This document shows, piece after piece, positions 26,124 through 62,547 of a stretch of DNA of 64,000 nt. The DNA is taken from the IMG/VR virus record IMGVR_UViG_3300008954_000002, positions 97,099 to 161,098 of that record; one strand, written 5' to 3'. How positions within the stretch are numbered: position 1 is the first letter of the stretch; each line of letters opens with the position of its first letter. This DNA comes from a virus. Made by a program: the position numbers and the translations under genes. The notes beneath the pieces are model-generated. The model was not told where the DNA came from. It searched no databases and was given only the letters and a program-made list of their open reading frames with translations.

Positions 26124-29100
26124 TAGTCACCCATCAGTCTGTCAATATAGTTAGGAGTCAGTGGTCTCCTAGTGTCATTAATTCGTATTGAGCCAGAACC
26201 TCTAATGCCTGCAAGAAAATCCATAGAAGCTCTTACTCCACTAGTAGAGGGTACCTCACCTCTAATTTGATAAGCGTTTTGTCTTGAGAAATAAGTTTCT
26301 CCAGTGTTTACAGGCCTATGCATCATATCATTGTGTGGTCCCCCACCCAAGCTTTCTGGGGTGGGCATGTTGTCTTCTCTTGGTGCAAACAGCTCTCCTC
26401 TTCGTATAGCTGTTGCTACTCCAGAGTCCATTACTTCACCAGCAGACAACATTGGAGTAGGTGAATATCCTTCACTTCCCATAACTCCTTTAAGTGCTAA
26501 AGTAATACCTACACCTGCAGCTACGGGACCAAGGAATCGTTTGTCTAGCTTCTGTGTAGCGCTTGTAATGCGATTAGTGGTTGCAGCTATCTCATCCATG
26601 GTGCCTGCAAGACCAGTAGTAGTCTCAAGGGCAAGTCCTGCTTCCATAGCATGTCTTTGTTCGACCTGAAGAGCAAAGGCTCTCCGTGTTGCAGCTTTCT
26701 CACCTTTGAACATTTGGGCATTCTGATAGGCAGTCCCACTAAATTCTGCACCTGTCTCGTGTACATAGCGCGCAGCCATACGGCCAGACTCAACTAAGGA
26801 GCCAACACTAACCGCTCTGCCTTCTTGCAGCAGTGACTTGTTGAGCTGCTGCATTATTTTGGCTTCTTCTCCGGTACCGCCCAGCCCCCCCAGTTGCTGG
26901 GCTAGCATATCTTTATTGAAGCCAGTAATTCTAAGACCTTCCTTCGTATTTATGGCTGAGCCTTCAAAGATGTCTTCTAGAACTTTCTGGTACTTAAGTG
27001 AGCCTGCTTCAGATCCACCAGTTCGGATCATCTCATTAGTAGCTTCAATAAGATCTCCTGCCATATTTTTATAATGTGCATGGTGTTTGGCTTTGATTGC
27101 TACAATCTCTTCTATAGCAGTAAGACCAGCTAGCCCCTGCTGGGCAGCACTATATCCCATCTCTGCAGAAGTTTGTACTGTCCCCAACCTAAGCTTGTTA
27201 AGCGCCACATCAATTCTGCCAATGTCTTTAGCAGTAGCTTCTTTCATAACCTCATGATAGCGAGCTTCTTGAGGTGAGAGCTCACCTAATGCGCTTACTT
27301 CCATTTGAGCAGTCTTCTTGATAACTTCTGAAGCCTCCTCCATGATAGCGCCTACTTCAGCCCTATACCTAAGGGCTTCATTTGAAAACATCTCTTTTGC
27401 TGCAGAGGATTTCTGGAAGTAACCACTAGTGCCTTTCTTTGCAGAGGGAAAGAACAGCTGATAGTTATCGCCATCAAAGTCACCAATCATTCCAGCAGCA
27501 AAACTAAGGTTTAGCTTTATGCCCTTCTTCCTGTTGTTGTAGTGGACATCTACTTCAAAGTTGGGAATATAAACCTTGCCTCCGCCCTCTGTCGGTGCCA
27601 AAGCACTTATGTTTCTAGCCATGCTCTGGAAGAAGTCACCCATTGCTCCCCCTGCCTTCCGTCTAAGCCCTTTCTCTGTGCCAGGAAGCGCCATCCGTCT
27701 CATCTCTTGGAAGCTAGATGGCCTCCTACCTGTAGCAGCCTCAAACCTAGCAAGAGCAGCTTTACCTTCTGGAGTGCCTCTAGTGAACTTGCCAAACATT
27801 ACATCCGCCCGACCTGTTTCAGGTGCATATCTGAATGTCTGGGCAGGGGCTACATGCCCTGGGCCAAGCACTGGATCTCGACCTAGGATAGTTTCAGTTC
27901 CCTCTGTAAGTCTCGCTTCCATTCCAAGGAAGTAAGACTGGAATCGAGATCCCATTTCTTCCATGGCAGCACCCTTAGCTTTCCCACCTGTCATACCTAC
28001 CGCCTCATAAGAAGCAGTAGCTCCACCCATGTATCCACGCATTGAATCTAGAAAGCGTTGTGTATCGGCAAAAACCGCACTGCCACTAGAGCGCTTAAAA
28101 GCAAGCTGGGTCCGTGACAACTGTGCCTTGGTAAGCTCAGTGGTTGGAAATTCACCTGCTATCTGAAGACTAGCACCCAACCCATAGGAAGAGCCTCTAA
28201 GCTTTCCTCTTAGGACACTATTGTAAGTATTCCCAAATAGCTCACTAATGCCTGCCTTCCATTCGCGCAGTAAGTCGGCGTTTGCACCCGCGTCCACAGA
28301 CTGCCTAATGGTATTCAAGTTGTCGGATAGAAGATGTATCTTTCGTGTGTACTCCCCATGTATTGGCTTTGGTCCCTCAGCAGTTTTAATTTCAACACCC
28401 CTCATAAGTGCCATAGTGTTACCGCCAGCAATTCTAATTTGTCGAGTTCCAAGTGCAGCTTCTGCAGCTCTTCCTGTCTTATCTCTTACTCCACCAAGGT
28501 CAAGTATAAAGCCTTCCTTATGCTGTGCAAGCAATTCGGTCATGGCTCGTGTATCACGCGATCCTTCGAGAAAGGCGTCTACGCCTATAGTAGTAAGCTT
28601 TTGGGATGCTTTATATCCAGCAACTACTCCCTCTCGTCCACTAAGCGTGAGCTGCATCTTGGAAAGATCCTGAACAATCTTCAAGTGTTCAGCTGCTCCT
28701 CTTTTACGAGCAAGAACCATAGCCATAAAGTCGTTGGCCTCATTAGCGGGCATTCCGAGATTAGCTACTTGATGCTGAAGGAACTGGTAATAGCGCGGCT
28801 CTATAGAAGACTCTGCTGATCGAAGTATCTGAGAAAGTGGACCTGGAGTAATAGTATCAGCACCAAGAGCTGTTCCTCTCTTAGCTGATGCGATAATTTT
28901 CCCAGCAAGAGGCCCTGCTTCTCCTTTGATAAGGTTAGCCACTGCTGTCTGTGCTTCACCCTTTGCACCAAACCCATATAAGTCTGCGTGCTTGTAAAGC
29001 CCAGCCATAACCATGCCCATCTGCCCGGTTCTTGCTTCTGCATTAGGCAGTGCAAGCATTTTCTTCAAGGTAAGGCTTGCCATGTTCTCAAGATAAGCCC

Positions 29101-31390
29101 GGTCTCTAGCTACCTTTGACATGCCCTTATAGGCTGCGTCAGGGAGAGCGTCCTTATCCTTATTAATGGTGTTGAATAAACTATTCCAAGTTTTGTCTTT
29201 TGTTCCATAGCCCGCCATGAGACCCATACCGGTAACCATCTGTCTAGCTACTGCTCCTGAACCCTTCTTGAGCATGCCTCCACCAGAGAGCATTGTCTGT
29301 TCTGCTCCAAGCCCCAGCGCTTGGACCTCGCTAAGAACCCCGGCTCTACCCAGCATCTCGCGTTGCATTTCCGGTGTCATTCCCTTAGTAAAAGATTTTG
29401 TAAGTGTCGAGAAGGCTTTGGCAGAACTCGTATCTATAACTACGCTGCCACCAAAATGAATCCTAGGTGTACCCATAACATTAGAGGCACTCTCAAATGC
29501 AAGATTAAGCTCTTGCATGCCTGTGTAATGTGCAAGCTCTGCTCCTTGCCCTATCTGAGAAAGAGTATTGCCGTACTTGCCAAAGAACTTAGCTATCTCT
29601 TTCTCACCACTCACACTAATCTTACCTGCTCCAGAAGACCAAGCAGTCTGTCCTTCAAGAAGCTCATTGAGCAGCTGGGTAGATGGAAGATCCAATGCCG
29701 CAACGTCCAGTACAGACTTCTGTATTGCTTGCCTAACTCTTGCCTTGCCTCCAAGCCAAGCTTCACCTGGCCCAAGAGAAAAGACATTCTTACCACTAAG
29801 ATCCATGACGATAGCTTTATTCATACCACCTGTTAGACCATTAGACCACCCTACGTTTTGGCCAAACTGCTGAAAGGTTCTTGATGAGCCGAGTGTACTT
29901 TCTACTGGATTTGCAGGCTGGACAAACATGCCTTCCCTACCAGTAACCTGCCTAATACGCATTGTTGCTGGTAGTGTACCTCGATCTGTTAATCCAAGTG
30001 GTGTAATTTGGCTTAGAGGACTGTTGGCACCTAGTCCAATTCGCGTCCAAGAGCCTCCGCCGGGAAGCCGCTTTACTTCATGGCTGCCACCAATATCAAA
30101 AAGACCTCCCTCTGCATACGCAAAATACTTTCTAAGCTCAGTCTGTGCCTTTAGATCAAGAGCGTCCCACCCAGCGATAGTCATGCTTGAATGACTAATA
30201 GCTTGTTGTGCTAACAGGTGCCCCCTCATAGGAGAAGAACCCGGTATTGATACAGCCCTGCTTTGCGATGTGCCAAAGCTCCGTTGGAATTTGCCAACAG
30301 TATCTGCATTAATCTTGCTTGCATTGCCGCCAACAGCTTTCAGTCTATTGAGAAAGTCATTGGCAAAGAAATCAGTTACACTCCCGATGGCACCTGCCTT
30401 CTTAAGGCGACCGATACTATTTTGATCCCAGACTGCTGCACCAGGAGCACCCGTCTTTCTAAATTCGTTTAACAGCTTTGTTGCATCTGCAAATAAAATA
30501 TCAGCACTATACTGTGCAGTACTTTGAGCACCTACTCTAAAAACAGGAACGCCACTTGGGCTGTTCAGGCTTAGAGGTATGCTTGCTCTGAAGGTACTAC
30601 GGTTGCGCCCCTTGTTATATATGTGGGCATAAAGATCATCTCCTTGCCCCTGCATAATCCTGACCTCGCCAGTGCCCCTCATTGCTTTCTCAAATTGCCC
30701 CTTCCATGCTGCTATCTTGGGAGATAGTTCTCCTGAGAACTCAGTGAAATTAGGGTTGAGTCCTCTTAGATTATACGTAGGAGCCTGTAGCTGCTCTCGC
30801 ATTCCTTGGTTTCTACCCAGCAAACGATGGAATGTAGCTTGGGCTTCTGGAGTGCCACTCTCTAAAACCGTATTCACAGTACTCTGTACTATTTTGGCTG
30901 CATCCTCAGTAAGCTGAGCCTCTCCATTTCGCATAAGCTCTATCAATTTGCTTTTAATATCTTGAGCTTTTGCTGTAGAAATACCTGAAGTAGCATCATC
31001 AACAGCTTCAACAATTGTACTCAGAATTGCATTGCGAGATTCAACGCCTTCACCAAGCATTCTTGTAATGCTATCCTTGGAGGGGTTAATTAAATCTTCA
31101 GCAAACTTCTGAAACTTTACTTGGTTAATCTCCTCTCTAGCTGCACGCGCTCTTTTTAGGGAATTCCCGATACTGGCATTAGAGTCTCTAAACCCATGTG
31201 TCTTAAGCCCCAACAGAGAGCCAGGCGTATTACTCTTGAGCGCAGCAACCCCTACACCAACACCTACTGCTATAGGTGCTACACCAACAACTTGCTCAAT
31301 AAAATTGCGACTAGTATCGCCAACCTCCTGAGTGCTGAAATCTGTTCTTTGGGATTTGCCAAACAATCTAAGAAGAGGGTCAATTGCCAC
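26123..31390 (-). CDS. Candidate virion RNA polymerase in the tape-measure cluster (1755 aa)
   Basis: Starts with GTG at 31390 behind a GGAG site. Three short motifs resemble the two-barrel single-chain RNA polymerases (QDE-1, plant RDRs, YonO, crAss-like phage polymerase). RDPVLGPG at 1171-1178 corresponds to the conserved NPCLHPG-type loop. GDFDGDNYQLFFP has DFDGD at 1304-1308, where three Asp would bind catalytic Mg. DIGRIDVALNKLRLG (Gly near 1391) may be the bridge-helix region. The spacing between the first two motifs (about 130 residues) is longer than usual, implying an insertion. Hydrophobic segments lie at 34-51 and about 1618-1637. Position suggests it is packed in the tail or head and ejected. 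The alternative is a tape measure with a chance DxDxD loop; it lacks a full EF-hand pattern. Confidence 0.6.
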   Translation of the reverse strand: MAIDPLLRLFGKSQRTDFSTQEVGDTSRNFIEQVVGVAPIAVGVGVGVAALKSNTPGSLLGLKTHGFRDSNASIGNSLKRARAAREEINQVKFQKFAEDLINPSKDSITRMLGEGVESRNAILSTIVEAVDDATSGISTAKAQDIKSKLIELMRNGEAQLTEDAAKIVQSTVNTVLESGTPEAQATFHRLLGRNQGMREQLQAPTYNLRGLNPNFTEFSGELSPKIAAWKGQFEKAMRGTGEVRIMQGQGDDLYAHIYNKGRNRSTFRASIPLSLNSPSGVPVFRVGAQSTAQYSADILFADATKLLNEFRKTGAPGAAVWDQNSIGRLKKAGAIGSVTDFFANDFLNRLKAVGGNASKINADTVGKFQRSFGTSQSRAVSIPGSSPMRGHLLAQQAISHSSMTIAGWDALDLKAQTELRKYFAYAEGGLFDIGGSHEVKRLPGGGSWTRIGLGANSPLSQITPLGLTDRGTLPATMRIRQVTGREGMFVQPANPVESTLGSSRTFQQFGQNVGWSNGLTGGMNKAIVMDLSGKNVFSLGPGEAWLGGKARVRQAIQKSVLDVAALDLPSTQLLNELLEGQTAWSSGAGKISVSGEKEIAKFFGKYGNTLSQIGQGAELAHYTGMQELNLAFESASNVMGTPRIHFGGSVVIDTSSAKAFSTLTKSFTKGMTPEMQREMLGRAGVLSEVQALGLGAEQTMLSGGGMLKKGSGAVARQMVTGMGLMAGYGTKDKTWNSLFNTINKDKDALPDAAYKGMSKVARDRAYLENMASLTLKKMLALPNAEARTGQMGMVMAGLYKHADLYGFGAKGEAQTAVANLIKGEAGPLAGKIIASAKRGTALGADTITPGPLSQILRSAESSIEPRYYQFLQHQVANLGMPANEANDFMAMVLARKRGAAEHLKIVQDLSKMQLTLSGREGVVAGYKASQKLTTIGVDAFLEGSRDTRAMTELLAQHKEGFILDLGGVRDKTGRAAEAALGTRQIRIAGGNTMALMRGVEIKTAEGPKPIHGEYTRKIHLLSDNLNTIRQSVDAGANADLLREWKAGISELFGNTYNSVLRGKLRGSSYGLGASLQIAGEFPTTELTKAQLSRTQLAFKRSSGSAVFADTQRFLDSMRGYMGGATASYEAVGMTGGKAKGAAMEEMGSRFQSYFLGMEARLTEGTETILGRDPVLGPGHVAPAQTFRYAPETGRADVMFGKFTRGTPEGKAALARFEAATGRRPSSFQEMRRMALPGTEKGLRRKAGGAMGDFFQSMARNISALAPTEGGGKVYIPNFEVDVHYNNRKKGIKLNLSFAAGMIGDFDGDNYQLFFPSAKKGTSGYFQKSSAAKEMFSNEALRYRAEVGAIMEEASEVIKKTAQMEVSALGELSPQEARYHEVMKEATAKDIGRIDVALNKLRLGTVQTSAEMGYSAAQQGLAGLTAIEEIVAIKAKHHAHYKNMAGDLIEATNEMIRTGGSEAGSLKYQKVLEDIFEGSAINTKEGLRITGFNKDMLAQQLGGLGGTGEEAKIMQQLNKSLLQEGRAVSVGSLVESGRMAARYVHETGAEFSGTAYQNAQMFKGEKAATRRAFALQVEQRHAMEAGLALETTTGLAGTMDEIAATTNRITSATQKLDKRFLGPVAAGVGITLALKGVMGSEGYSPTPMLSAGEVMDSGVATAIRRGELFAPREDNMPTPESLGGGPHNDMMHRPVNTGETYFSRQNAYQIRGEVPSTSGVRASMDFLAGIRGSGSIRINDTRRPLTPNYIDRLMGD

Positions 31391-31405: not shown

Positions 31406-34400
31406 TTACATAGCTCTAGCGAGTAAACTTAGTATATCTGATTCTCTTGAATCATTATAGTGCAGTTGGGCTTGAGTCTGCCCACCCCAATAGCCATGCA
31501 CACTCATATCTCTAGAGCCTCGCTGGTGCTCAGACCTAGGCAAGTTATACATAAGCTCTCCTATGGAGTCTCTATGAAGGGGATGATCTTGGTAGAGGAA
31601 ATCAGTTGAGCCTTCTAGGTAGGGCTTGCGAGCGAGCATTCTCACATCCCTTTGCCAGCCACCATACTCATGAACATCTCTACCAAGATCATCCGTATAT
31701 TTGATCTTGATATCTCTTAAATCTACATCTGCATTATGCCCTATCCAGTCTTCGGAAGGCAAAGGCTTATCATAGAAATATCCTTGCAGCTCATTAAAAC
31801 GACTCGCTAAGTAAGCTTCATTAACCTGTGTTGCAGAGCCTGCATGCAACCCAGGATCGCCCCTATCCATTCTTTCCCATACTGTCTGATAGAGGTGGGC
31901 CTGATCCGTAGGAACCATTTCAAGGATTCTTTGCCTATCTTCTCCCTGTGCAAAAGTGAATGCATCATAAAACTTCTTTTCTCCCTCTGGCATTGCTGCA
32001 TAGATGCCAAGCGGATTACCTTGAGGGTTGACACCAAAGCGAGTTTGCTGAGCCCTATAAAGGGCCTGACGCTTCTCATTGCCCTGAGACTTTTGAGCAA
32101 TTGTCATCCACTTCATAAACTCTAGCTTGTCAAAATACTCATCGGTCTGACGCGTCTCTTCTACATGACCGGGGATTCCCCTATAGCCCATAAGATTAGC
32201 AGCCTGATAAGCAGCTGGCCTAAACCAGTCACGTACTGGCTTGTCCCAAAACGCCATATTCGTGCCGTACAAATTTGTCCTTTCATATTCCTCTATAGCG
32301 TCTCTATTCCCCATCAGCTTAGACATAGGTCTAAAGCCGAAAGGCATCATATACTCAGCGGGTTCAACAATAGCTCTAAGCGATCTTTGTCCAACATGCC
32401 AAGCAGCTTGTGTAGCTTCAGAAAGCAGTGGAACTTCAATTGCGTTATCATGAGTTGGTAAGAAACCGTCACCGATTAGCTTCTTATTAAGTCTTGTATC
32501 AATAAGATCAATGAAGTCGTTTGTATTCCTGCCTGTCAATCCAGCGGCACGAGCTTTATATATCTGAGCTCTTGTGGTTCTAAACTCAGGTGACCAATCT
32601 GCCACATCAGCTAGGATGGCATATCGATAAGCTATTGGATACTTTTCAGGATCAACTCCACGCAGCTCTGGATGTATAGCTTGGTACCCAGCCCCAGGCA
32701 ATCTTACATCAGCATCAGGAATAGTTCTGTACGGATCACCCATCTTGTACCTTTGGGGCAACCATGAAGGCATGGTATTTAAGATAGGATTATATTCGTC
32801 AACCTCTGGTCTTATTCTAGGCAGAAAGCGCCTTGCAAGCTCTGAGGTAAAGAAGGCACCCCCCAAGTCCATACCCCAGAAGGCCTCTCTAAGATCGGTA
32901 ATGGAACTTGCACTAGACAATACAGAGCGCTGACTGAAGAATGTCTCTGAGCCAGTCAGCTTCTTTGTTATCACATTGGAAAGAAATCCTGTTAATCCTT
33001 CCATCTCTCTAAAGCGATAACTTGATGCACCTGCTACAAAGCCAGGCGTATATGGGGACATTGGCTTGCCTGGCGTTAGCCCGCCAAGCTCATAGTTAGG
33101 ACCCTTATACTCAGGGGCATGAGCGAACTCTAACTGGTCTCCTTGGCCTGTACGAACCCAGTCTGGGACATGCATGAGTTTGGGCGGCTTAATAACTCGT
33201 CCAATAGTTGCCGCTAGAGCAGGCCCAATCATTGGGACGTCTTCAAATGCACTACCCGTAATTGTATGGGGCCTATTCCAATAGTTTCTTCTCTCAAGCT
33301 CATAAGTAAAGTTCTTTCGTAAGAACTTCCCAAGAGGACTAATGCTGTCTTCATCCTCTCCCCAGCGTGCTCTCTCTGAAGCCCTGCTTCTCCAAAGAGC
33401 AAACCGGTGAGGTCTCATATACTTTGTTTCACCTCCCTCAATATCTCCACCACCACCTTCCCAGAACCGACTTGCTCTTACTTCAATCTGTTGCTTCCCA
33501 GAGTATATGTCCATGAGATCGCTGGGGTTCTCTAGGCTGCCAATACCACCAGTAGTAAGCAATCTGTGAGCTGCTGCGCCGGCGGCAAACAATACTCCTA
33601 AGCGACCGATACGAGGCTTAAATCCAGTCTCCTCAAAAAGTCTTGTAAGATACTCTTGACCTACAAGCTCCTTGCTTAAATTTGCTCCAAAGAACCCGTG
33701 CATGGCACGGCTGCTAAATGATTCTGCGACTCTCGCTGCTCTAGCTACAAAACCTGTCCTTCCAGAATAGTGTTTGTCTATCCGTTTTAACGATTGCTGT
33801 AGGGAAGCATTGAGTGGGTTATTTTCAAGAAAGGCTTTATCTTGTGCAGTAGCTCCACTTCGTTCAAGCTGGAGCCTATCCATAAGAGCACCCCATCGCC
33901 CTTGTTCTTTGGCAGACTTCTGCATAGCAAAGAACAGCCGATTTCTTCTAACTGTTTTGGGTAGCTTGCCCTCCATGATTTGATTAGCTTTTTCTGCAGA
34001 GACATAGCCTTCATTAATTGCTACATTATGGACACTGCTCCAATACCTATCTCTAGCAGAGAGGCCAACAATTCCAGCACCCTTGACACTGCTTGCTTCT
34101 AGTGCAGCCTTTTGGAAACCAATCCTGCCATCAAGAATTCCACTTAGTCGGAAGGGTTCCTGTCCATACCTTTCAACAAGATGTGCAGGCAAACCTAAAT
34201 ACCCAGCAGCAGCCAATGATAAGCCGGCAAAGGCACTAGTCTTCCAATCGGTTATCCCTGGGGCAAAACCCTCCAGTGTCCTTCGGTATATATTAAGCCC
34301 AGTAAATTTCCCAACGGCAGCTAGACCTACTTGGCCAGTTGCCCAAGTATCAGCAATACCTTGTCCAGTACCCTTGTCAAAACCAGGCAATAGCATTTGC

Positions 34401-35569
34401 CCAAAGAAAGCACCTACGCCTACCATCATGGAGGCGCGCTGACTTCCTCCAAACTTCTTAGTAAGTGCAGCGGCACCTGCTGCCATTCCTCCTGACACAA
34501 GTGCATGCCCAGGAAGTCCACCCTGCCTTCTTATCCAGTCTAGCTGCTTAACAGCCAGAATAGCACCACCAACCTGTGCCCCCTTAATGCCAAACCGTGT
34601 AAACATCTCCATGCCTGTTCCAGGACGAACAGCAAGTGACATTCCAAGATGCTTTTCAAACGATTGTGCTACACCACCTAAGAGTGGCAGCTGATCCATC
34701 GTTGTTCCAATAAGCCTATTAAGTCTTTGAGCTCCAAAAGCATAGAGCGATCTGAAATAAGTACTTCTATTAGATAGATCAGAAAGGTTTCGTAGCGGAC
34801 CTCCAACTGAAGGCATTGGCATGAAGCGAGAAATCTCTCCAGATACCGAGTCAGAGAATACTCTTCTAAATTGGTTAGGAGACCACTCTTTAAAAAACCC
34901 GCCAGCCTGCAGAACCGATTGGTAAGCAGGAGTCATCTTGGGTTGCTTGAGGCCTACTTGTGCAGCTTGGGCAACGTCTTTAGCTGATACTGGAGTAGTC
35001 TCAAATAAAGAAGCAGCGCTGGATACTAGTTCCCAAAGGCCTTTAGTTCCTTTGCGTGCAAAAAGACTACCTCTAGCGGCTGAGCGGGCATCTCTCTCAA
35101 AGAGGAGCTCGAACCCTTCGTCGCCAAACCCTCTGTTGATGCCTAACTTGTCAAAAGTCTCCCCACCAAAGAACTTCCTAACAACTTGCTCTGTCTCACC
35201 AGCGCCAAGAACATCTTTGCCCCAGTGCACTCCAACTACATCTCTAGTTAAGAGCTTACCTCCTGGCCCCATAAACTGTTGAGCAGCATACTTCTTAGCT
35301 CCCTGCATCCCCGAAGATACAAAGGGCGACATCCATTCGGCAGCACCAAAGGTATTGCCAAAACTCCATGGGGTGCTAGACGCAGCATGTCTTACTATTC
35401 TTTGAAGATCATCAATAACTCGACCGCCACTAGTAAGCGGACGTGTAGTTGCATAAAGCCCAGCTCCACCTAAGGCAGCGGTGATAGCAAGATTGAAAGC
35501 TCTCCCTGAGGGGGGATTCCACGGAGTGGCTTCCTCAGAAGTCCACCTATGCCCAGGGTGATAAGCCAC
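31406..35569 (-). CDS. Probable tape measure or tail-lumen protein (1387 aa)
   Basis: Begins with GTG at 35569, just after the stop of the second chaperone; GAGGG lies upstream. It is the first long gene after the tail chaperones, the canonical tape-measure place. Several hydrophobic, Gly/Ala-rich segments (about 27-48, 363-397, 451-470, 660-677) fit membrane insertion on ejection. The C-terminal 500 residues are different: Pro, Tyr and Trp rich, with MPSWLPQRYKMGDPYRTIP, and rather globular, which is unusual for a simple ruler. At about 1.5 Angstrom per residue it would set a tail near 200 nm, but with two more giant proteins beside it the ruler could be shared. No catalytic motif seen. Confidence 0.6.
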   Translation of the reverse strand: MAYHPGHRWTSEEATPWNPPSGRAFNLAITAALGGAGLYATTRPLTSGGRVIDDLQRIVRHAASSTPWSFGNTFGAAEWMSPFVSSGMQGAKKYAAQQFMGPGGKLLTRDVVGVHWGKDVLGAGETEQVVRKFFGGETFDKLGINRGFGDEGFELLFERDARSAARGSLFARKGTKGLWELVSSAASLFETTPVSAKDVAQAAQVGLKQPKMTPAYQSVLQAGGFFKEWSPNQFRRVFSDSVSGEISRFMPMPSVGGPLRNLSDLSNRSTYFRSLYAFGAQRLNRLIGTTMDQLPLLGGVAQSFEKHLGMSLAVRPGTGMEMFTRFGIKGAQVGGAILAVKQLDWIRRQGGLPGHALVSGGMAAGAAALTKKFGGSQRASMMVGVGAFFGQMLLPGFDKGTGQGIADTWATGQVGLAAVGKFTGLNIYRRTLEGFAPGITDWKTSAFAGLSLAAAGYLGLPAHLVERYGQEPFRLSGILDGRIGFQKAALEASSVKGAGIVGLSARDRYWSSVHNVAINEGYVSAEKANQIMEGKLPKTVRRNRLFFAMQKSAKEQGRWGALMDRLQLERSGATAQDKAFLENNPLNASLQQSLKRIDKHYSGRTGFVARAARVAESFSSRAMHGFFGANLSKELVGQEYLTRLFEETGFKPRIGRLGVLFAAGAAAHRLLTTGGIGSLENPSDLMDIYSGKQQIEVRASRFWEGGGGDIEGGETKYMRPHRFALWRSRASERARWGEDEDSISPLGKFLRKNFTYELERRNYWNRPHTITGSAFEDVPMIGPALAATIGRVIKPPKLMHVPDWVRTGQGDQLEFAHAPEYKGPNYELGGLTPGKPMSPYTPGFVAGASSYRFREMEGLTGFLSNVITKKLTGSETFFSQRSVLSSASSITDLREAFWGMDLGGAFFTSELARRFLPRIRPEVDEYNPILNTMPSWLPQRYKMGDPYRTIPDADVRLPGAGYQAIHPELRGVDPEKYPIAYRYAILADVADWSPEFRTTRAQIYKARAAGLTGRNTNDFIDLIDTRLNKKLIGDGFLPTHDNAIEVPLLSEATQAAWHVGQRSLRAIVEPAEYMMPFGFRPMSKLMGNRDAIEEYERTNLYGTNMAFWDKPVRDWFRPAAYQAANLMGYRGIPGHVEETRQTDEYFDKLEFMKWMTIAQKSQGNEKRQALYRAQQTRFGVNPQGNPLGIYAAMPEGEKKFYDAFTFAQGEDRQRILEMVPTDQAHLYQTVWERMDRGDPGLHAGSATQVNEAYLASRFNELQGYFYDKPLPSEDWIGHNADVDLRDIKIKYTDDLGRDVHEYGGWQRDVRMLARKPYLEGSTDFLYQDHPLHRDSIGELMYNLPRSEHQRGSRDMSVHGYWGGQTQAQLHYNDSRESDILSLLARAM

Positions 35570-54558: not shown

Positions 54559-55224
54559 CTAAAATCCATTGCCTCTATGCTGGTTGAAGCCTCTAGCGTG
54601 AGAAGGTTGCCTACTGCCACCTAAGAAGAAGCCCCCAAGGCCGGCACCTGAGAAGGCAGCAGCTCTAGCACTCATTGTTGCGCCAGAAGCCCAGTTGCCA
54701 AAACTCTCTGCATACCCGTTAGCCATTAACTTTTCATTGCTTTGAATACTCTTGCCAAGGCCTCTAACATTAGCAGTAGTAATAAGACTCCTTGCACCAT
54801 AACCCACACCCATACCCATTACAGCTCCCTGACCAAACTCACCACCAGTTACAGCAGATGCTCCGCCTCCTACAAGGCCCATGAGCGCCATACCACCTAA
54901 TCCCTGTGCATTCAATGCTCCACTAGTAGCTTCGGATACTGCATCTGCCATAGGGCCACTAGCAGGAGCGGGGCGAGAAGGTATTGCGCCTGGACCACGA
55001 TCAGGAGCGGGGCGAGAAGGTATTGCGCCTGGACCACGATCAGGAAAGAGTAAGGCTTGCTCACCGCTTCCAGTCTTTCCCCACATTTGAGGGGCACCCG
55101 GCTTTACTCTAGTAGCAAAGCCAAAGGACAATTGCTCGCCCTGCCCTGTACCAGCAACTTTATCTATAGCTCGGCTACTCGTCCCTCTAAGCTTACCAAG
55201 CCTACTCATCATTGCTCTAACCAT
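54559..55224 (-). CDS. Gly/Ala-rich membrane-like protein with 13-aa repeat (221 aa)
   Basis: Starts at ATG 55224, next to the terminase stop. The N-terminal third is basic. Residues 62-87 hold a perfect 13-residue tandem repeat (RGPGAIPSRPAPD). A Gly-rich hydrophobic region follows (GGMALMGLVGGGASAVTGG, then GAVMGMGVGYGARSLI) and looks like glycine-zipper membrane helices. The C-terminus is basic, His/Arg/Asn rich (RQPSHARGFNQHRGNGF). The 293-aa protein on the other side of the terminase has the same style. Perhaps an ejected or head-internal protein; unproven. Confidence 0.55.
   Translation of the reverse strand: MVRAMMSRLGKLRGTSSRAIDKVAGTGQGEQLSFGFATRVKPGAPQMWGKTGSGEQALLFPDRGPGAIPSRPAPDRGPGAIPSRPAPASGPMADAVSEATSGALNAQGLGGMALMGLVGGGASAVTGGEFGQGAVMGMGVGYGARSLITTANVRGLGKSIQSNEKLMANGYAESFGNWASGATMSARAAAFSGAGLGGFFLGGSRQPSHARGFNQHRGNGF
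54963..55040. repeat. Perfect 39-bp tandem duplication inside Gly-rich gene
   Basis: Two identical 39-bp copies (54963-55001 and 55002-55040) in frame, encoding RGPGAIPSRPAPD twice. The perfect identity implies recent duplication or slippage. The duplication adds Pro/Arg-rich linker and does not disrupt the gene. Confidence 0.95.
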
Positions 55225-55227
55225 TGT

Positions 55228-57498
55228 CTACCTCTTTTTACCAATGTTGCCTCTACCACGAGAGCGTACTCTAGGACCAACACGATGTGGCTTAGACATA
55301 CTTTTTACCTCATTGATACCCTCTAAGTCCATCTCATGACCTCTAGTATGATTAGAATGAGAAGCAAGTCCTTCGAATATACTCTGGTGTGCATCTGGTT
55401 CTCTAGTACGTCCTATATCTCCTCTACTCTTGCGGAAGTGTTTTCCAGACAAGGTTTCTTCCGCCTGATACTTTTGCTTAACAAGCCTATCTACTTCGGG
55501 ACCCTCTCCTCTGACTATCTGCAATACACTAGGAAATCCAGGGAGACCTCTTGCCCTAGCTTCGTTAAACATTTCTTTTGCTTCTGCTTTGGGAGACATA
55601 TAAGAACCTTCTCCTGAAGACTTATTGATAAACTTTGGTCTGGAAATGGGAAGTTGATTACCACTATATACTGACACCTCAAGAGATAGTCCTGCAAGTG
55701 CCAACATTAATGCATCTAGTCTATGATCGCCAACACGAACATTCTCTGGACCATACACAGGCTTTCCTGTAGTAGGCGCTGTTCTTAGGATAACATAATT
55801 CATTAGTTGTTTAGTTAGGTCCTCATCGCTCTCAGGATATACGATAAGTTCATCTTGAAGAATCCTAACAGCATTCTCAACAAGGTAGTGCTTGCCCGCT
55901 TTCTTGATAATAGTTCCATCAATAGGATCTCTCAGTTCAATTGTCTTTGAAAAGTTAAAGGCTACTAAGCGATCAGAAAGCCTCACAGATTGTTCTTCTA
56001 TCTCGTTTCTATTTTCTTTTCTCTTCAGTCTATGAGCATAGAGAAGTAAGTCTTCGATGATTGTGTGACCATAACCTTCATCAGCATAGATCCAATCAGG
56101 CTTCCACTTGTGGTTGAGCCGTACCACTTCTTCCATCCAGCGTTTAGCTGAGAATTTAGAAGCTGGAATATTAATTGCCTCTCTACCATACCACTTGCCT
56201 GTAGAAGTAGAATAAGAGAGTACATAGAACTCAGTACCTGCATTCTTGTTCCAATCAATACCTATACAGGTAAGCATATTGGCTGGCTCAGTGACACCTA
56301 GTGATGTTCTTAGGAACTCTTGGCTGGCTGTTTGGTCATAGGTATAGTCTGCCCGAGCTGCATGTATCCATGAAGGACGAAAGACTCCATAGTTACCCTC
56401 AACGAACTGAGCCATGTACTCAGCCTCAAAACCCTCCTCAGTAGTTTCAGATTCTATCTCTTCTTTTACGCTATCCCAATGAGGAAGTACCGTAGATGGG
56501 TAATAATCTTCTTTGAAATCCGCACGCTCTAGTGCGTAGTTGTAGAATTTGCCTCGCTTCCCGATAGGAGTTGAAGTGGCCATCAGCACCACGCCTGGCC
56601 TTGTGAGCAAGATTGGTGTAATAACTTTATCCAGAATATCATCTGGGATCATATCCATTTCATCGAGATAGATAATGTCTGCTGAGCCGCCTCGAATTGT
56701 ACCACCACCCGAACCATCAGACTTGACTCCAAGCCCAGACACGAATCCCTTAATTGAAGTACCGCTTTTTAGTTCCATCTTATAGGTGGGAGTTTTAATG
56801 TACAGACTATCTCCTGTACCAGTGGTAACCTCTCTTCTAAGTTCAACGTTTCTCTTGATGAAGGCCTCCATTTCATCAAAGATAACAGTTAGTTGAGATT
56901 GATAAGGTGTAATGATTAAGATCTCAGGACCATGACTTACAGGGTTGCCTTCTGCGTCTAAACCACGGCTTACTTTCAGGTTGAAAGCATAGTAAACAAG
57001 CCTCAATGCCATTATAAAAGATTTCCCAGAGCGCCTCCCCCACCTGCATACATTTCTAAGACTAGTGCAACGCAGCAGTTCCTTTTGATAATTTCGTATG
57101 CGCCAGTTCTCATCGCTATCATCAAAACCAAACATCAGCTCTGCCCAAGCTACAGGATCGACTGTAGAGAGAAGAAGCTTTCTTGCTCTATCATAAGGAA
57201 TGTCATTAGCAGCACTAAGACGCTTTATCTTTTCCTTGGAGCCATTAGGTAATCCTCTGGGGATAAAGTTGCAGCTTACCTTAAAGGCACTTTCATTTTT
57301 CTTAGTTCTTTTATATTTCTCTATCTGTCGTATCTGACAATTGATACAAGTTCTATGGACATCAGTTTTTATTCCATACTCTTCTTTATAGTGTTCAGCA
57401 AGAGCAGGATCGGGTTTCGCAGCAGGGTCCTGATGTGTATATCCATACTCATTAGTAGTATAGAGTTCACTAAGTAACTCTTTGATAGTGGGACTCAT
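55228..57498 (-). CDS. terL: Terminase large subunit (756 aa)
   Basis: Starts at ATG 57498 with AGG at seven bases. The packaging motor and nuclease carries Walker A GRRSGKS at 154-160, Walker B IIYLDE at 275-280, the coupling motif ATSTPIGK near 307-314, and RuvC-like nuclease acids D415 (GIDWNKNAG), D473 (YADEGYG) and D591/D595 (GDHRLDALM). An N-terminal extension of about 110 residues bears C51-x2-C54 and C76, perhaps a zinc site. The C-terminus is strongly basic. It sits between two Gly-rich genes, with a TerS candidate two genes upstream. Confidence 0.93.
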   Translation of the reverse strand: MSPTIKELLSELYTTNEYGYTHQDPAAKPDPALAEHYKEEYGIKTDVHRTCINCQIRQIEKYKRTKKNESAFKVSCNFIPRGLPNGSKEKIKRLSAANDIPYDRARKLLLSTVDPVAWAELMFGFDDSDENWRIRNYQKELLRCTSLRNVCRWGRRSGKSFIMALRLVYYAFNLKVSRGLDAEGNPVSHGPEILIITPYQSQLTVIFDEMEAFIKRNVELRREVTTGTGDSLYIKTPTYKMELKSGTSIKGFVSGLGVKSDGSGGGTIRGGSADIIYLDEMDMIPDDILDKVITPILLTRPGVVLMATSTPIGKRGKFYNYALERADFKEDYYPSTVLPHWDSVKEEIESETTEEGFEAEYMAQFVEGNYGVFRPSWIHAARADYTYDQTASQEFLRTSLGVTEPANMLTCIGIDWNKNAGTEFYVLSYSTSTGKWYGREAINIPASKFSAKRWMEEVVRLNHKWKPDWIYADEGYGHTIIEDLLLYAHRLKRKENRNEIEEQSVRLSDRLVAFNFSKTIELRDPIDGTIIKKAGKHYLVENAVRILQDELIVYPESDEDLTKQLMNYVILRTAPTTGKPVYGPENVRVGDHRLDALMLALAGLSLEVSVYSGNQLPISRPKFINKSSGEGSYMSPKAEAKEMFNEARARGLPGFPSVLQIVRGEGPEVDRLVKQKYQAEETLSGKHFRKSRGDIGRTREPDAHQSIFEGLASHSNHTRGHEMDLEGINEVKSMSKPHRVGPRVRSRGRGNIGKKR

Positions 57499-57500
57499 GC

Positions 57501-58382
57501 TTACCTATAGTTAGAGAAGTAATTGCGGGAGGAGTGCAAATATGTCGCCTCCATTCCCAAAGATTGACGCGCGTTCATATGTGAGTTTCTCATAGCCTCC
57601 ACAGACCTAGCTCTCATAGTCATTGCGTTGCGTGTCATAAAGGCAGAAGTATCTCCAGCAGTGTCAATTGAATGGCGAGCTGCCCCTCGTCTATAGCCAG
57701 TCTTCACCAAGCTAAACGCCCCCTTCCCTACAAGTACCGCCCCACCTATTACTGCACCTGCTGCTAGCGCTCTTGGACCGGCTGCCAGCCACGAACCCGA
57801 ACCTATAGTAGCTGCACCCATAGCACCACCTACATAGCCGCCCATAAGTGAGCCAGGGGTTCCCAGCACAGATTGTCCAAGATTAGCTCCTATGCCAGCA
57901 CCAAGCATTACCCCTATGCTGCCGGGCATACCACGACTACGATATCTGAACTGGCCTACCTTGCCCCCATGCTTTCCCCCACCTGCTTGGCGCACATGGC
58001 TCCACCGCTGCATCCCGCTCATTACTCCTATGTCGTAAGCAAGAGCATCTTTTGCTCCAACAACACCGCCCTCACCACCGTCTGCACCTGTCCACCCTCG
58101 GTACATAAAATACCCACTAAGAGCTGGTCCAAAGAGACTGCCAAGAGTCTTTCCAATCCCAGGGTCCCCCACCTTGCCCCTGCCTCTTGGAAAACTAGGA
58201 GGTCCACCCAGTCCAGTTCCACGAGATATGTCCCACTTGGTATTGCCCCACTTGGTGTGGCGAGTATCACTCCAGTCGCTAAATCCTTCTCCATACTCGG
58301 GAGCAAGAGTATAGAATCCAGCAGTATTTAGAAATCCACCATGGACATAGTTCTGAAGATTTAATAGTGCGCTTTTAACCAT
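57501..58382 (-). CDS. Gly-rich membrane-like protein (293 aa)
   Basis: Starts at ATG 58382 right after the 1112-aa gene. Gly content is very high, with hydrophobic Gly/Ala-rich segments around residues 90-115 and 155-225 (IGVMLGAGIGANLGQSVLG, then ALAAGAVIGGAVLVGKGAF) that would form glycine-zipper helices. The N-terminal 90 residues are globular, and the C-terminal 50 are basic and Met/Arg/Asn rich. Its similarity in style to the 221-aa protein flanking the terminase is seen by composition, not alignment. It may be an inner-head or ejection protein. Confidence 0.55.
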   Translation of the reverse strand: MVKSALLNLQNYVHGGFLNTAGFYTLAPEYGEGFSDWSDTRHTKWGNTKWDISRGTGLGGPPSFPRGRGKVGDPGIGKTLGSLFGPALSGYFMYRGWTGADGGEGGVVGAKDALAYDIGVMSGMQRWSHVRQAGGGKHGGKVGQFRYRSRGMPGSIGVMLGAGIGANLGQSVLGTPGSLMGGYVGGAMGAATIGSGSWLAAGPRALAAGAVIGGAVLVGKGAFSLVKTGYRRGAARHSIDTAGDTSAFMTRNAMTMRARSVEAMRNSHMNARQSLGMEATYLHSSRNYFSNYR

Positions 58383-58384
58383 GC

Positions 58385-61300
58385 CTACATCCTGTGGTGA
58401 CCAATCGGGCTGTTAAACATCTGATGGTTCTGGTGCCTTTGACCAGCAGCCATCTTGCTTCTAAGATTTCTTCTACGTACCCCATACATTTCATATGCTT
58501 CTAACTTGCGCTTACCCCACATACTGTTGGTAGTGCTAAGCTGATCCAATGACATAGATTTATCATAGTTGCCATACCCAGTGCCACTACTTAGCTTTCT
58601 GTCATAAGTGCTACCATGAGTCGATGTAAGTGAACCAGTGTCTTGAAGTAACTGTTCCATGTAGGTTGTGTGTGGGGCTTTTGGCGCATAGTGCATAGGC
58701 ATTGAACTTCTAGCATCGTCACTAAAGCCAAGCTTGCCTATTCTTGCTCCAATCTCTGCAGCAGCTATGCTATCTGCAGTGCTATAGAAACCCTGTGCTT
58801 GTGCGTTCATCATCAGTGCGCCACCTGACATGGTGGCGCTATTCTTTACTAGTTTATTTGTATTGGCAAAGGTTGCCCACGTAATTCTGCTACCAGCTGC
58901 ATCGGTAACATCATAAGCAGCTTGGAAGAAAGGCTCAGACCACATACCTGCTTGAGCACCATGGGCAGTCTTCTCAATTCTACCAAGAGAATGGTAATCA
59001 ATCATTGGCTCAGTACCCTTCTTATAGAAAGGAAGTGCCCCAGCCATACCACGCCTAACTAACTCAAAGTTAAGGTTCTGCCCATCACCAATGACGGCAC
59101 CTACCATACGGCCATAGGTTACATTCGTAGGATCAAAGACAAGATCAAGCTTACCTGTCTTGCCTATCATGGCTTCTAAAGCTACTCTTGCAGCCTCGCC
59201 CTTAGGCTGGCTTTGCATAGAGGAGCCCTTAAGATTAAATATACCATTGCCGTGTACTATTTCAGGAGCATCAATACCTGCAAGGCGGAAGCTGAATCCC
59301 CTGTTGGCCCCAAAGAAACTTGCTATTGCACCACGTATACCACCCCGCTGAACAACAATAGTGTCAGCATCTTCTACTTTTACCTTCCAGTTTCCTTCAG
59401 ACAAACTTACTTTCTGGAGACCAGCTCCCTGTAACCCTGCATAGTTGGATGGATCTGCTCTTTGAACATCTTGTGTCAAGAAGGAATGTCCCGACGTATT
59501 GACCCCAAGCGAAGGCCATATCTGTTGCACCTTACCAAAGAGACCATTCACAGGATCGTAATGCTTAGCACCAAAAGAAGAACGCAAGTATTTCTCCCTT
59601 GCATCTAGAAGCTCTTGTTGCTCAAACACATGACTAGAATATACAGGCCCTCTATAAGGAGATCCAAAATCAGTAAATGCTCTCTTGCCCATAGCTGCGA
59701 TACCAGTAGGAGACATCCCTGCTCGCTTTGTCTTCCTAGGATCTCTAGTTCCGTAAAACTCTCCTTGTCCCTCAAGCCATACTTGGTAGTTCATGGTGCG
59801 GAGAGATTCAGGACCTCCTCGCTGATGTCTTGGACCATTCTTAATAACATCCATAACGCCAAGCGCACCCATTCCTGCAGCAAAGGCTGCTAGTGTTCTT
59901 CCCCCACTAGGAATCTTAGCCAATCGCTCAGTCATACTGCTTGTTCTACCTAGCCCTACCCTCTTTAGAGCAGAGGGGAGCTTGGGCAGCTCATGCATAC
60001 CATGCTGTCCTAAAAACTTAGTTATAGCTTTATCGTCTTGTGTGAGTATCTGCTTAATATAGTTATGCTCTAGATCTCTTCCGTGCCGGCTTAGATATTG
60101 GGCACTTAGGTTCTGCAGCGCATCGGCGCTTGCGACCTCCACACCATGCGCCCCCTCTCTAAGTCCTCCGCCTTTAGAAAGAGCATCAATCATAGACCTT
60201 GATACATCATCTATGTCTGTGTGCGTATATCTGCCAGAAGCTTTTATATCTTCTACTATATCTGCAATATCATAGATGGGTCTGGTTTGTGCTGCTTGCC
60301 TTGTTACATGCTCTGTCTCGCCTGCTCTAGACACAAGCTCTAGTGGAACAGCTTTGCGCACACCAGTTGTGCGGTGTGCTACCCCTTCTGTTGCAAGATC
60401 CTGAAAGGCTCTATCAAGTTGCTGGATAACCTGAGCCTTCTCTCCCTGCTTGTATAAGATATCTTGTAGAGCTTGGTACCTTACTTCCTTGGCTAGTGGC
60501 CCCGTGCCACCCTTCTCATACATGCGAATGAGTGCTCTACCATGCTCAGTACCTTCTGCTATATGCTGCAGATCTGCAGTTCTGGCAACAGCATTTCTTA
60601 AGATAGAGGCCTCTGTAATGGCATCTTCTAAAGACCTGTGCCATTCTCTTGCTCCAAAAGCCTTTGCTGCTGCACGGCCCTCTAGTTCTGTAGCCCCAAA
60701 AAGCCTAGCAGCAATATCCATTGAGGACCCATATCTGCCAGCAGGCATAGTAGACAAGCCTAGCTCTACTGCATATGACTGTCGTGCCTTTAATACATCG
60801 ATTATATCTCGTACATCGCCTGCACCCGTATGCTTTAGATATGCTTTCCAGACAGGCTTCCAATCCCCAGTAACACTTGCTTCTGCTCTAGCTGCTATTG
60901 CTTCAGGCCCAGTGACGTAAGTAGGAGCAGACGATAAGGGATTTCTCCACGGCAAAGCGGCTAGCATAGGGTGGGTTTGCCTTACCTTACGTATGGCTTG
61001 TTTCTCATTCATTCCCTCGGCAACAAGCTTGTCTATTAGGGGCTGCTGTTCAGCAGAGATGTGAGCCCCAATCTGAGCCGCTTCAAAATTGGCATTAGCT
61101 ATCCATGTAACATTCTGGCTCATCTTTTTAACTAGTTCAGAATCGGCAGAGAGTACACGCTCTAAAGTAGTGAGTTCAGTCTTGTAGCTTGCTAGTTTAG
61201 AACCAAAGGCCTGTAAGTCTAAGATACGCTGTTCTCTACTTACTCCCGGCGTCCCTCGGTTAAGCATATCTCCAAGAGGACCTTCTGGAGTAGTAAGCTG

Positions 61301-61723
61301 GTCATAGATCCACTTATCTTTCTGCTTGATACTCTCTAACGCCCCGGCAAGCCTACCCTCAGGCACATCCTTGAAAGCTCTCCTTAGCTGTTCAGCTGCT
61401 TCCTTGCCTCTACCGCCTGTAGTAGAGCCCTTAAGCATAAGTGCTTTAGCTACAACAACATCATCCCATGTAGCTGCCTTTCCTAGGAACTTAAGCCCAG
61501 GGTGGAATACGTGCTTGTCTGTAGCAGTGCTAGAAAGCTGTGTAAGATCTTGAGCCCTGTTACTCTTGCCCAAGATCATATTGGGAGCTATCTTCCACTC
61601 AGTAGCTTCCTGTGTAGCTAAGCTATACAGGGCCATCTCTACGGTACCAGAACCCTCTCTAAGCCCTAGGGTCTCAATATCAAGAATTAATGCATTCTGT
61701 AGTAACGAATGGTGTGAAGGCAT
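58385..61723 (-). CDS. DEDDh exonuclease plus SNase-like nuclease fusion (1112 aa)
   Basis: Starts at ATG 61723 (weak Shine-Dalgarno). The N-terminus has the DEDDh exonuclease set: Exo I D15/E17 (ILDIETLG), Exo II ANANFEAAQI with E214 where Asp is normal, Exo III H362/D367 (EWHRSLEDA); the wide spacing implies inserted helices. Residues about 775-925 are a staphylococcal-nuclease fold: D787, R813, D818, E821 (RLAGIDAPE) and R872 (YGRMVGA), equivalent to D21, R35, D40, E43 and R87. The middle has a hydrophobic stretch near residue 607. The Arg/Glu/Arg catalytic set is intact. Two nucleases in one late protein beside the terminase suggest processing of packaged DNA or ejection against host DNA. 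Confidence 0.8.
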   Translation of the reverse strand: MPSHHSLLQNALILDIETLGLREGSGTVEMALYSLATQEATEWKIAPNMILGKSNRAQDLTQLSSTATDKHVFHPGLKFLGKAATWDDVVVAKALMLKGSTTGGRGKEAAEQLRRAFKDVPEGRLAGALESIKQKDKWIYDQLTTPEGPLGDMLNRGTPGVSREQRILDLQAFGSKLASYKTELTTLERVLSADSELVKKMSQNVTWIANANFEAAQIGAHISAEQQPLIDKLVAEGMNEKQAIRKVRQTHPMLAALPWRNPLSSAPTYVTGPEAIAARAEASVTGDWKPVWKAYLKHTGAGDVRDIIDVLKARQSYAVELGLSTMPAGRYGSSMDIAARLFGATELEGRAAAKAFGAREWHRSLEDAITEASILRNAVARTADLQHIAEGTEHGRALIRMYEKGGTGPLAKEVRYQALQDILYKQGEKAQVIQQLDRAFQDLATEGVAHRTTGVRKAVPLELVSRAGETEHVTRQAAQTRPIYDIADIVEDIKASGRYTHTDIDDVSRSMIDALSKGGGLREGAHGVEVASADALQNLSAQYLSRHGRDLEHNYIKQILTQDDKAITKFLGQHGMHELPKLPSALKRVGLGRTSSMTERLAKIPSGGRTLAAFAAGMGALGVMDVIKNGPRHQRGGPESLRTMNYQVWLEGQGEFYGTRDPRKTKRAGMSPTGIAAMGKRAFTDFGSPYRGPVYSSHVFEQQELLDAREKYLRSSFGAKHYDPVNGLFGKVQQIWPSLGVNTSGHSFLTQDVQRADPSNYAGLQGAGLQKVSLSEGNWKVKVEDADTIVVQRGGIRGAIASFFGANRGFSFRLAGIDAPEIVHGNGIFNLKGSSMQSQPKGEAARVALEAMIGKTGKLDLVFDPTNVTYGRMVGAVIGDGQNLNFELVRRGMAGALPFYKKGTEPMIDYHSLGRIEKTAHGAQAGMWSEPFFQAAYDVTDAAGSRITWATFANTNKLVKNSATMSGGALMMNAQAQGFYSTADSIAAAEIGARIGKLGFSDDARSSMPMHYAPKAPHTTYMEQLLQDTGSLTSTHGSTYDRKLSSGTGYGNYDKSMSLDQLSTTNSMWGKRKLEAYEMYGVRRRNLRSKMAAGQRHQNHQMFNSPIGHHRM

Positions 61724-61728
61724 CTGCT

Positions 61729-62508
61729 CTAGTCGTCTAATAAGATTTCGTCGTCTTCTGCTATTAGCTCTACTTCTTCAACTTCTAACTGGCCCAATGC
61801 CTCCCGCAATTTAGTTATTTCAGCCAACACCCTACTCTCGTTACCAACTCCACCAACTTTAGCAGCCCAATCTGCTTTAGCTTTCCGCGTTTCCATAAGG
61901 TTGGTAAGCCATTTATCTCTCCTACGCTCAAGCTTTTCTAGAACTTCTAAAGCCGGGTGCAACTTAGCAACTTCTGCAGCCTGACCATTCTCATTAAACC
62001 CTATTATGTCTACCCGCATAAAGTCCCGGCCCTGCCCCCCTCTGTCTCCTACGCCTAAGATCATTAATGCTCTATTCTTATACAGGTCTAACAACGCCAA
62101 CTCATTAACAATAGACATCTCAATAGGGTTCTTAGGGTCTACATTGAGATGTTCCATATACTCAATAATCTTCTGTCTCATGTAGAACTTCTCTAAGATA
62201 CACTCTCTACCAATCGGATAGTCGGTGTCATTACCATATACTAAAGCCCCTGTTGTCTCATCTCTTTCAGGTATAGGGCACCTTTCTACAAACACACACT
62301 TTACAGGTCCAAGACACATGGTTGGAGCTACAGCGTGTAAGCCGTGACTCATACTGTGTACAGAGTTTCTTATTCTTAGTTGTTTATTGGGGGAAAGCCG
62401 GTCTAGATAGTTGACATAGTCTTCTTCTACTTCCGCTATTTCAGCTATTGCTTCTTCCTTAGTAGGTACTAAATCTAGCCCGACCTGCTTTGTATCTTTT
62501 TTAGACAT
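61729..62508 (-). CDS. Possible terminase small subunit (259 aa)
   Basis: The ATG at 62508 is preferred; a TTG two codons upstream (62514) is the other choice. Neither has a clear Shine-Dalgarno site. A four-Cys knuckle (MCLGPVKCVFVERCPIPE, then REC) followed by helices (EKFYMRQKIIEYMEHL, then LLDLYKNRALMILG) matches a protein type that large phages encode near the terminase and that is often called small terminase. The C-terminus is acidic (VEEVELIAEDDEIL). It lies two genes before terL. Recognition of DNA for packaging is inferred, not seen. Confidence 0.5.
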   Translation of the reverse strand: MSKKDTKQVGLDLVPTKEEAIAEIAEVEEDYVNYLDRLSPNKQLRIRNSVHSMSHGLHAVAPTMCLGPVKCVFVERCPIPERDETTGALVYGNDTDYPIGRECILEKFYMRQKIIEYMEHLNVDPKNPIEMSIVNELALLDLYKNRALMILGVGDRGGQGRDFMRVDIIGFNENGQAAEVAKLHPALEVLEKLERRRDKWLTNLMETRKAKADWAAKVGGVGNESRVLAEITKLREALGQLEVEEVELIAEDDEILLDD

Positions 62509-62547
62509 AGCCAATAGAAGTAAAAGTAAGGGGTAATGGGCCGCTGT

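Follow-up and report, generated by a model that had tools for sequence, protein, structure and literature searches.

The window analysed here comprises 64,000 nucleotides (nt), bases 97099-161098 of the 161,098-base virus record IMGVR_UViG_3300008954_000002. Its packaging module encodes a late protein of 1112 amino acids (aa) in which two complete nuclease domains, a DEDDh 3'-5' exonuclease and a staphylococcal nuclease-like (SNase) domain, are fused (Table 1). Both folds were modelled, and the catalytic residues named in an earlier note made from the sequence (D15, E17, E214, H362 and D367; D787, R813, D818, E821 and R872) all lie at the positions given there. Each domain is well known separately; the fusion, its status as a core gene, the genomic slot that it shares with other proteins and the swapping of nuclease cargo in that slot appear to be new. 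No earlier description of any of these was found in the literature searched, of which coverage was partial; this agrees with the earlier note, whose author knew of no such fusion. UniProt names one apparent further member, A0A6J5NQ80 of an uncultured Caudovirales phage, for an SNase-like OB-fold only; its structural model matches the exonuclease domain. Across a large and sequence-diverse group of uncultured phages the double nuclease is a core gene, and half its length is invisible to standard annotation.

Residues 1-400 are modelled as a DEDDh exonuclease of RNase H-like alpha/beta fold, for which catalysis is predicted. The AlphaFold2 model of residues 1-402, made from an alignment of 42 homologues, has a predicted local distance difference test score (pLDDT) of 91.5 and a predicted TM-score (pTM) of 0.91. 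Comparison with the PDB by VIA-align gives DnaQ (8h18) as the best match (Z 12.0, root-mean-square deviation (rmsd) 3.0, 164 residues aligned); the best 50 rows are all DEDD-type 3'-5' exonucleases or polymerase exonuclease domains. A profile of the 42 homologues finds two matches among PDB sequences, DnaQ 8h18 (E 0.023) and ExoX (E 1.7). Fold, motif order and catalytic residues are like those of the DnaQ/RNase T/ExoX group. In contrast to that group, the acid of motif II is mostly Glu, the domain carries large helical inserts and is fused to a hydrophobic helix and an SNase domain, and the window protein is too divergent for Pfam RNase_T.

The possibility that the DEDDh motifs are chance resemblances, and that the SNase alone is real, draws on the profile searches. 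Taken alone, the window protein has no exonuclease match in Pfam (no RNase_T), PHROG or NCBIfam, so that no curated hidden Markov model (HMM) finds the domain; RNase_T matches weakly in 3 of 42 members, its sensitivity being limited by large inserts and divergence. A profile match of this kind helps recognition and is not a biochemical criterion; the assignment is decided by fold and catalytic residues. Foldseek of the exonuclease model against the PDB is also weak (best E-value 0.09), probably due to the same inserts. Against chance stand the high-confidence model with its uniform set of DEDD matches, catalytic residues that are invariant in 44 of 44 members, and a canonical HNxxFD motif in outlying lineages; we regard this explanation as scarcely credible. 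Motif II has Glu as its acid in almost every member, with a single Asp (L014) among those less than 90% identical; the canonical Asp is found in L014, L144, L146, L152 and L159. In L024, an intein (PF14890 and LAGLIDADG, L024:3217-4485 (+)) sits exactly after the catalytic Glu of motif II, with junctions reading WIANTAFE / CLGEN...VHN / SRHIG.

The SNase domain is complete in sequence and model, with its OB-fold, calcium site and catalytic residues intact, and is predicted to be an active nuclease. Pfam PF00565 matches the window protein with 50.5 bits (cut-off 21; E 3.2e-13), and the profile matches staphylococcal nuclease in the PDB with E 4e-14. Only the SNase part was used from the full-length AlphaFold2 model, which was built from 7 sequences and has a pLDDT of 53.9; residues 767-928 superpose on staphylococcal nuclease with Z 16.1 and rmsd 2.9 over 134/136 residues, with 29% identity to the S. 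aureus enzyme. The calcium ligands and the equivalents of R35, E43 and R87 are present (D787, D818, R813, E821 and R872) in 48 of 48 members. Phage SNases such as SPbeta YokF have a similar complete domain, and there are weak tblastn matches to SPbeta-group nucleases. Unlike staphylococcal nuclease (thermonuclease) and these stand-alone phage enzymes, the domain here is internal to a 1112-aa packaging-module protein and fused to an exonuclease.

A second profile scan of IMG/VR gave 56 homologous loci. Conservation was counted over homologues less than 90% identical, which reach down to ~21-25% identity. The exonuclease catalytic residues are kept in 44/44 complete members and the SNase set (D785/D787, R813, D818, E821, R872) in 48/48. 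D15, E17, H362 and D367 are invariant wherever the contig covers the region; the lone E17 exception, L055, has a truncated start and is an alignment artefact. Among eight pairs, the ratio of nonsynonymous to synonymous polymorphism (pN/pS) is lowest in the SNase domain (0.07-0.28), is 0.23-0.44 in the exonuclease and is usually highest in the linker, which indicates purifying selection on both nuclease domains. Neither nuclease is inactivated in any main-clade member seen. Since catalytic residues survive to such low identity and pN/pS is low, the reading of an exonuclease plus an SNase is not due to chance. Structure prediction had been proposed in the earlier note as a check, with a missing fold or unconserved catalytic residues as grounds for refutation; the models hold both folds and the residues are conserved in both domains.

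Among isolate phages, tblastn with three members gave SNase matches only and no fusion. A pattern search of GTDB genomes found no homologue and therefore gives no prophage hint of a host. One subclade (L026, L029, L030, L033, L063, L068, L074, L078 and L080) has ~80 extra residues ahead of the exonuclease, reflecting either the choice of start codon or an extra N-terminal segment.

The content of the slot varies outside the main clade. Outlying lineages, reached by a search with the 293-aa neighbour family, carry both nucleases (L144, L146, L147, L149), the exonuclease only (L150, L152, L159 and the isolate Acinetobacter phage ME3), the SNase only (L142 and L153, where HMM and hhalign give no exonuclease signal) or neither (L158, L160, L161 and the isolate Bacillus phage KLEB27-3). 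On a TerL tree, the branch that separates the 41 main-clade fusion rows from the rest has SH-aLRT 100, and every complete member of this clade retains the fusion. Five architecture changes are needed in all, against a shuffled mean of 11.6; the tree is unrooted, so that gain and loss are not separable, and the long outlying branches L012, L149 and L153 are placed with less certainty. Because the slot in outlying lineages holds one nuclease or none, the nucleases look, from these sequence comparisons, like cargo on an older scaffold.

Two cultured phages illustrate the range. ME3_11 of Acinetobacter phage vB_AbaM_ME3 (A0A172PZZ4) lies in the same slot, followed by a Gly/Ala-rich protein and TerL. 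It has a homologous DEDDh domain (motifs FDTET, NHRFE and HTALSD, of which NHRFE is the Glu variant), a hydrophobic helix near its C-terminus and no Cys; it differs in lacking the SNase domain and the TDFGSPY segment and in having another tail. It is the second match of the exonuclease model in a viral structure library (probability 1.00; hhalign Prob 78.7). KLEB27-3 gp006 shares the slot, a Gly/Ala helix, an IGHHKM tail and the absence of Cys; it differs in having only 257 aa and neither nuclease.

The remaining conserved features are a hydrophobic helix between the domains and a C-terminal tail. The helix is found in nearly all members and has a Kyte-Doolittle (KD) value of at least 1.4 in 33/48. 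Net charge, summed over the members, is +84 for the N-side flank and +6 for the C-side flank. The N-side flank is the more basic of the two in 33 of 48 members and the less basic in 5, with 10 ties; this compares related proteins and is no formal test. Of 66 slot proteins, 51 carry a GHH-type motif within their last 25 residues, compared with 2% of other open reading frames (ORFs); the pattern was picked after the family had been seen.

Cysteine is absent from the nuclease family and from two Gly/Ala-rich neighbour families. Among 54,809 aa of the nuclease family there are 6 Cys, five of them within the intein of L024 and the sixth ahead of the probable start of L027; the 293-aa family has none in 15,838 aa and the 221-aa family none in 15,127 aa. 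Outside the intein and the upstream-start extension, this amounts to 0 Cys in about 85,000 aa, compared with 9.6 per 1000 in TerL, 17.7 in the 261-aa family and 14.1 in the 528-aa family. The family of the small 102-aa neighbour is nearly Cys-free too. In the proven ejection proteins of T7, P22 and N4 there is 1 Cys in 7,864 aa, compared with 7.0 per 1000 for 16 further proteins from the same phages. The signature fits ejection proteins that cross the envelope and tape measures; it falls short of proving ejection. The contrast between ejected and other phage proteins is a cheap, though non-specific, lead to ejection proteins.

The Cys-free make-up, the membrane-type helix and the conserved tail suggest injection with the genome. 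We give an about even chance to the reading that the double nuclease belongs to the ejection type of late virion proteins, carries two nucleases as cargo, is ejected with the genome and is anchored in a membrane. The protein and its Cys-free 293-aa and 221-aa neighbours would be built into the head or portal region, with the conserved tail probably mediating incorporation. On leaving the virion with the genome, the protein would insert its central helix in the cytoplasmic membrane; the basic N-side flank would place the Mg/Mn-dependent exonuclease in the cytosol, and the Ca-dependent SNase would face the calcium-rich outside or sit at the conduit. At the site of entry, both enzymes could then destroy DNA of the host or of competitors. 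More tentatively, and with less confidence than doubt, the slot may encode a modular ejected platform in a widespread uncultured clade of contractile-tailed phages: a Cys-free membrane-spanning scaffold to which phages add, or from which they drop, a cytosolic exonuclease and an outer SNase acting on opposite membrane faces at DNA entry. A simple relay in which one nuclease cuts and the other chews is unlikely, as SNases leave 3'-phosphate ends that most DEDDh enzymes handle poorly.

Several observations weigh against ejection. With its only moderate hydrophobicity (KD 0.8-2.3), the helix may fail to span a membrane, and the tail similarity of KLEB27-3 gp006 (MWNERIGHHKM) is based on 16 columns. 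The absence of Cys is non-specific: Cys is also lacking in the P1 tape measure, in the N4 major head protein and in two large tail-region proteins of the window (26123-31390 and 31406-35569 (-), of 1755 and 1387 aa), one of which may be a tape measure. The control of the cysteine argument limits it further, as T4 Alt and P1 DarB, myovirus enzymes delivered with DNA, contain Cys (about 4 per 1000), as does DarA. A nuclease packed beside, or ejected with, its own phage's DNA needs a control mechanism, and none is seen. The 3'-phosphate products of SNases also count here.

The same helix and basic N-side flank would serve a late nuclease that stays tethered to the membrane of the infected cell, where a cytosolic exonuclease recycles host DNA and an outer SNase destroys the DNA of superinfecting phages. 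SNases need calcium, which speaks for action outside the cytosol, and stand-alone SNases of SPbeta-group phages are annotated as chromosome degrading nuclease. This explanation appears doubtful, however, as the gene is conserved as a core gene within the packaging/head module rather than in an accessory position, and the slot protein is retained where the nuclease is absent. That retention would be expected of a head or portal scaffold for membrane-associated prohead assembly, to which the nucleases are secondary (neutralising host or rival nucleic acids late, for example), and the architecture of hydrophobic helix plus tail is shared with two neighbour proteins. Purifying selection on both nucleases, with neither inactivated in any main-clade member seen, makes this explanation improbable.

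A nuclease that clears branches or trims DNA at the portal during packaging by TerL is suggested by the gene's position, which in almost every locus is between two likely packaging genes. Trimming of packaged DNA had been offered in the earlier note; it is disfavoured because TerL retains its own nuclease motifs and because the slot protein of some relatives has only one nuclease or none. Further small nucleases, among them a PDDEXK protein, are predicted from the genome, and a sugar-nonspecific SNase is an unlikely trimming enzyme; we consider a packaging or maturation role improbable as well. Among the three functions that the note had offered (degradation of host DNA after ejection, trimming and superinfection exclusion), action after ejection fits best; superinfection exclusion stays a candidate.

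Known virion proteins offer partial parallels to ejection of the double nuclease. Like the three families here, the ejection sets of T7 (gp14-16), P22 (gp7, 16 and 20) and N4 (gp50-52) consist of three late, nearly Cys-free proteins. Those of T7 and N4 include at least one large enzyme (PMC8954989; PMC12633501). The closest functional parallel is the N4 virion RNA polymerase (vRNAP), a large enzyme believed to unfold as it is ejected (PMC12633501). These phages differ in being podoviruses whose ejected enzymes are transglycosylases or RNA polymerases. The PHROG, PDB and viral structure matches of the double nuclease include no proven ejection protein, and the BpSp virion proteome (PMC4870245) gave no link to the slot. 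In prophage BtI1, of the distantly related 0305phi8-36 myovirus lineage, an SNase domain is appended to the baseplate hub protein (PMC2147016); this is a precedent for an SNase as virion cargo, on a hub protein with no exonuclease described and at another genomic place.

If ejected, the protein would be a virion-delivered DNase that acts ahead of any phage gene expression, and how two nonspecific nucleases are injected without cutting their own genome becomes a question. Relatives that carry both nucleases, one or none make up a natural domain-swap series, in which ME3 is a cultured exonuclease-only relative.

The double-nuclease gene lies inside the head and packaging module, in one same-strand run with TerL, portal, protease and major head protein. 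The order is an 87-aa gene, the 261-aa gene, the double nuclease, the 293-aa gene, TerL (756 aa) and a 221-aa gene, followed by genes of 144, 171, 102 and 528 aa, portal, head protease, a 476-aa gene, major head protein and sheath; the gaps flanking the double-nuclease ORF are 2 and 5 nt. The earlier note was right to place the gene in the packaging module; it is not directly next to TerL, as the 293-aa gene intervenes. The order of small protein (261-aa family), nuclease, Gly/Ala-helix protein and TerL is near-fixed in nearly all loci. The 261-aa protein is likely to be a small terminase or packaging factor. Distant TerL relatives among isolates are found only in Moorella phage MTATph1, Acinetobacter phage ME3 and Bacillus phage KLEB27-3.

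Table 1. Features of the double-nuclease gene and its neighbours (window positions)
Feature	Position	Strand	Remarks
Double nuclease ORF, 1112 aa, ATG start	58385..61723	-	DEDDh exonuclease, linker, hydrophobic helix, TDFGSPYRGP segment, SNase, conserved C-terminal tail
Predicted DEDDh 3'-5' exonuclease domain, residues 1-400	60524..61723	-	Large helical inserts; AlphaFold2 model and VIA-align
Exonuclease motif I, D15-x-E17	61673..61681	-	D15 44/44, E17 43/44
Exonuclease motif II acid, E214 (WIANANFE)	61082..61084	-	
Exonuclease motif III, H362-x4-D367	60623..60640	-	46/46 where region present
Gly/Ala-rich hydrophobic helix between domains, residues 610-628	59840..59896	-	
Conserved TDFGSPYRGP segment	59645..59674	-	
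SNase domain, residues 771-932	58928..59413	-	D785/D787, R813, D818, E821, R872
Conserved C-terminal tail, ...MFNSPIGHHRM	58388..58441	-	GHHxM-type ending also on nuclease-less slot proteins
261-aa Cys-rich conserved protein	61729..62514	-	Upstream of double nuclease
293-aa Gly/Ala-rich protein	57501..58382	-	Conserved C-terminus NARxALGxEA; family Cys-free 47/47
Large terminase TerL	55228..57498	-	Own nuclease motifs present
221-aa Gly-rich protein	54559..55224	-	Tail RGFNQHRGNGF; family Cys-free 43/43

ME3_9 (L012:4078-5373), annotated as an RNA methyltransferase, is actually a homologue of the window 261-aa protein (E 1e-20) and bears an intein-like insert. A small Gly-rich family with its own conserved ending (LGATGDLVFALNxLRRG and similar) adjoins TerL in other loci (L013:4389-4820, L087:7384-7869, L158:7221-7646 and L155:523-1155). 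TerL genes are over-long in L008, L083 and L117, which suggests inteins there; inteins are also found in a ribonucleotide reductase and in or near pieces of a DnaE-type polymerase gene (L090:16151-19999 and L091:6006-9662).

The other arm of the same virus encodes a second, stand-alone SNase of 107 aa (L089:16111-16434 (+); G000:C1:35611-35934). A protein of 952 aa (L088:1849-4707 (+); G000:C1:1849-4707) that matches PF05183 weakly and contains the motif GDDDGD is likely to be a QDE-1/YonO-like RNA polymerase. In the tail region of the window, a 2962-aa protein (17235-26123 (-)) has a peptidase/endolysin-type domain at about residues 490-640.

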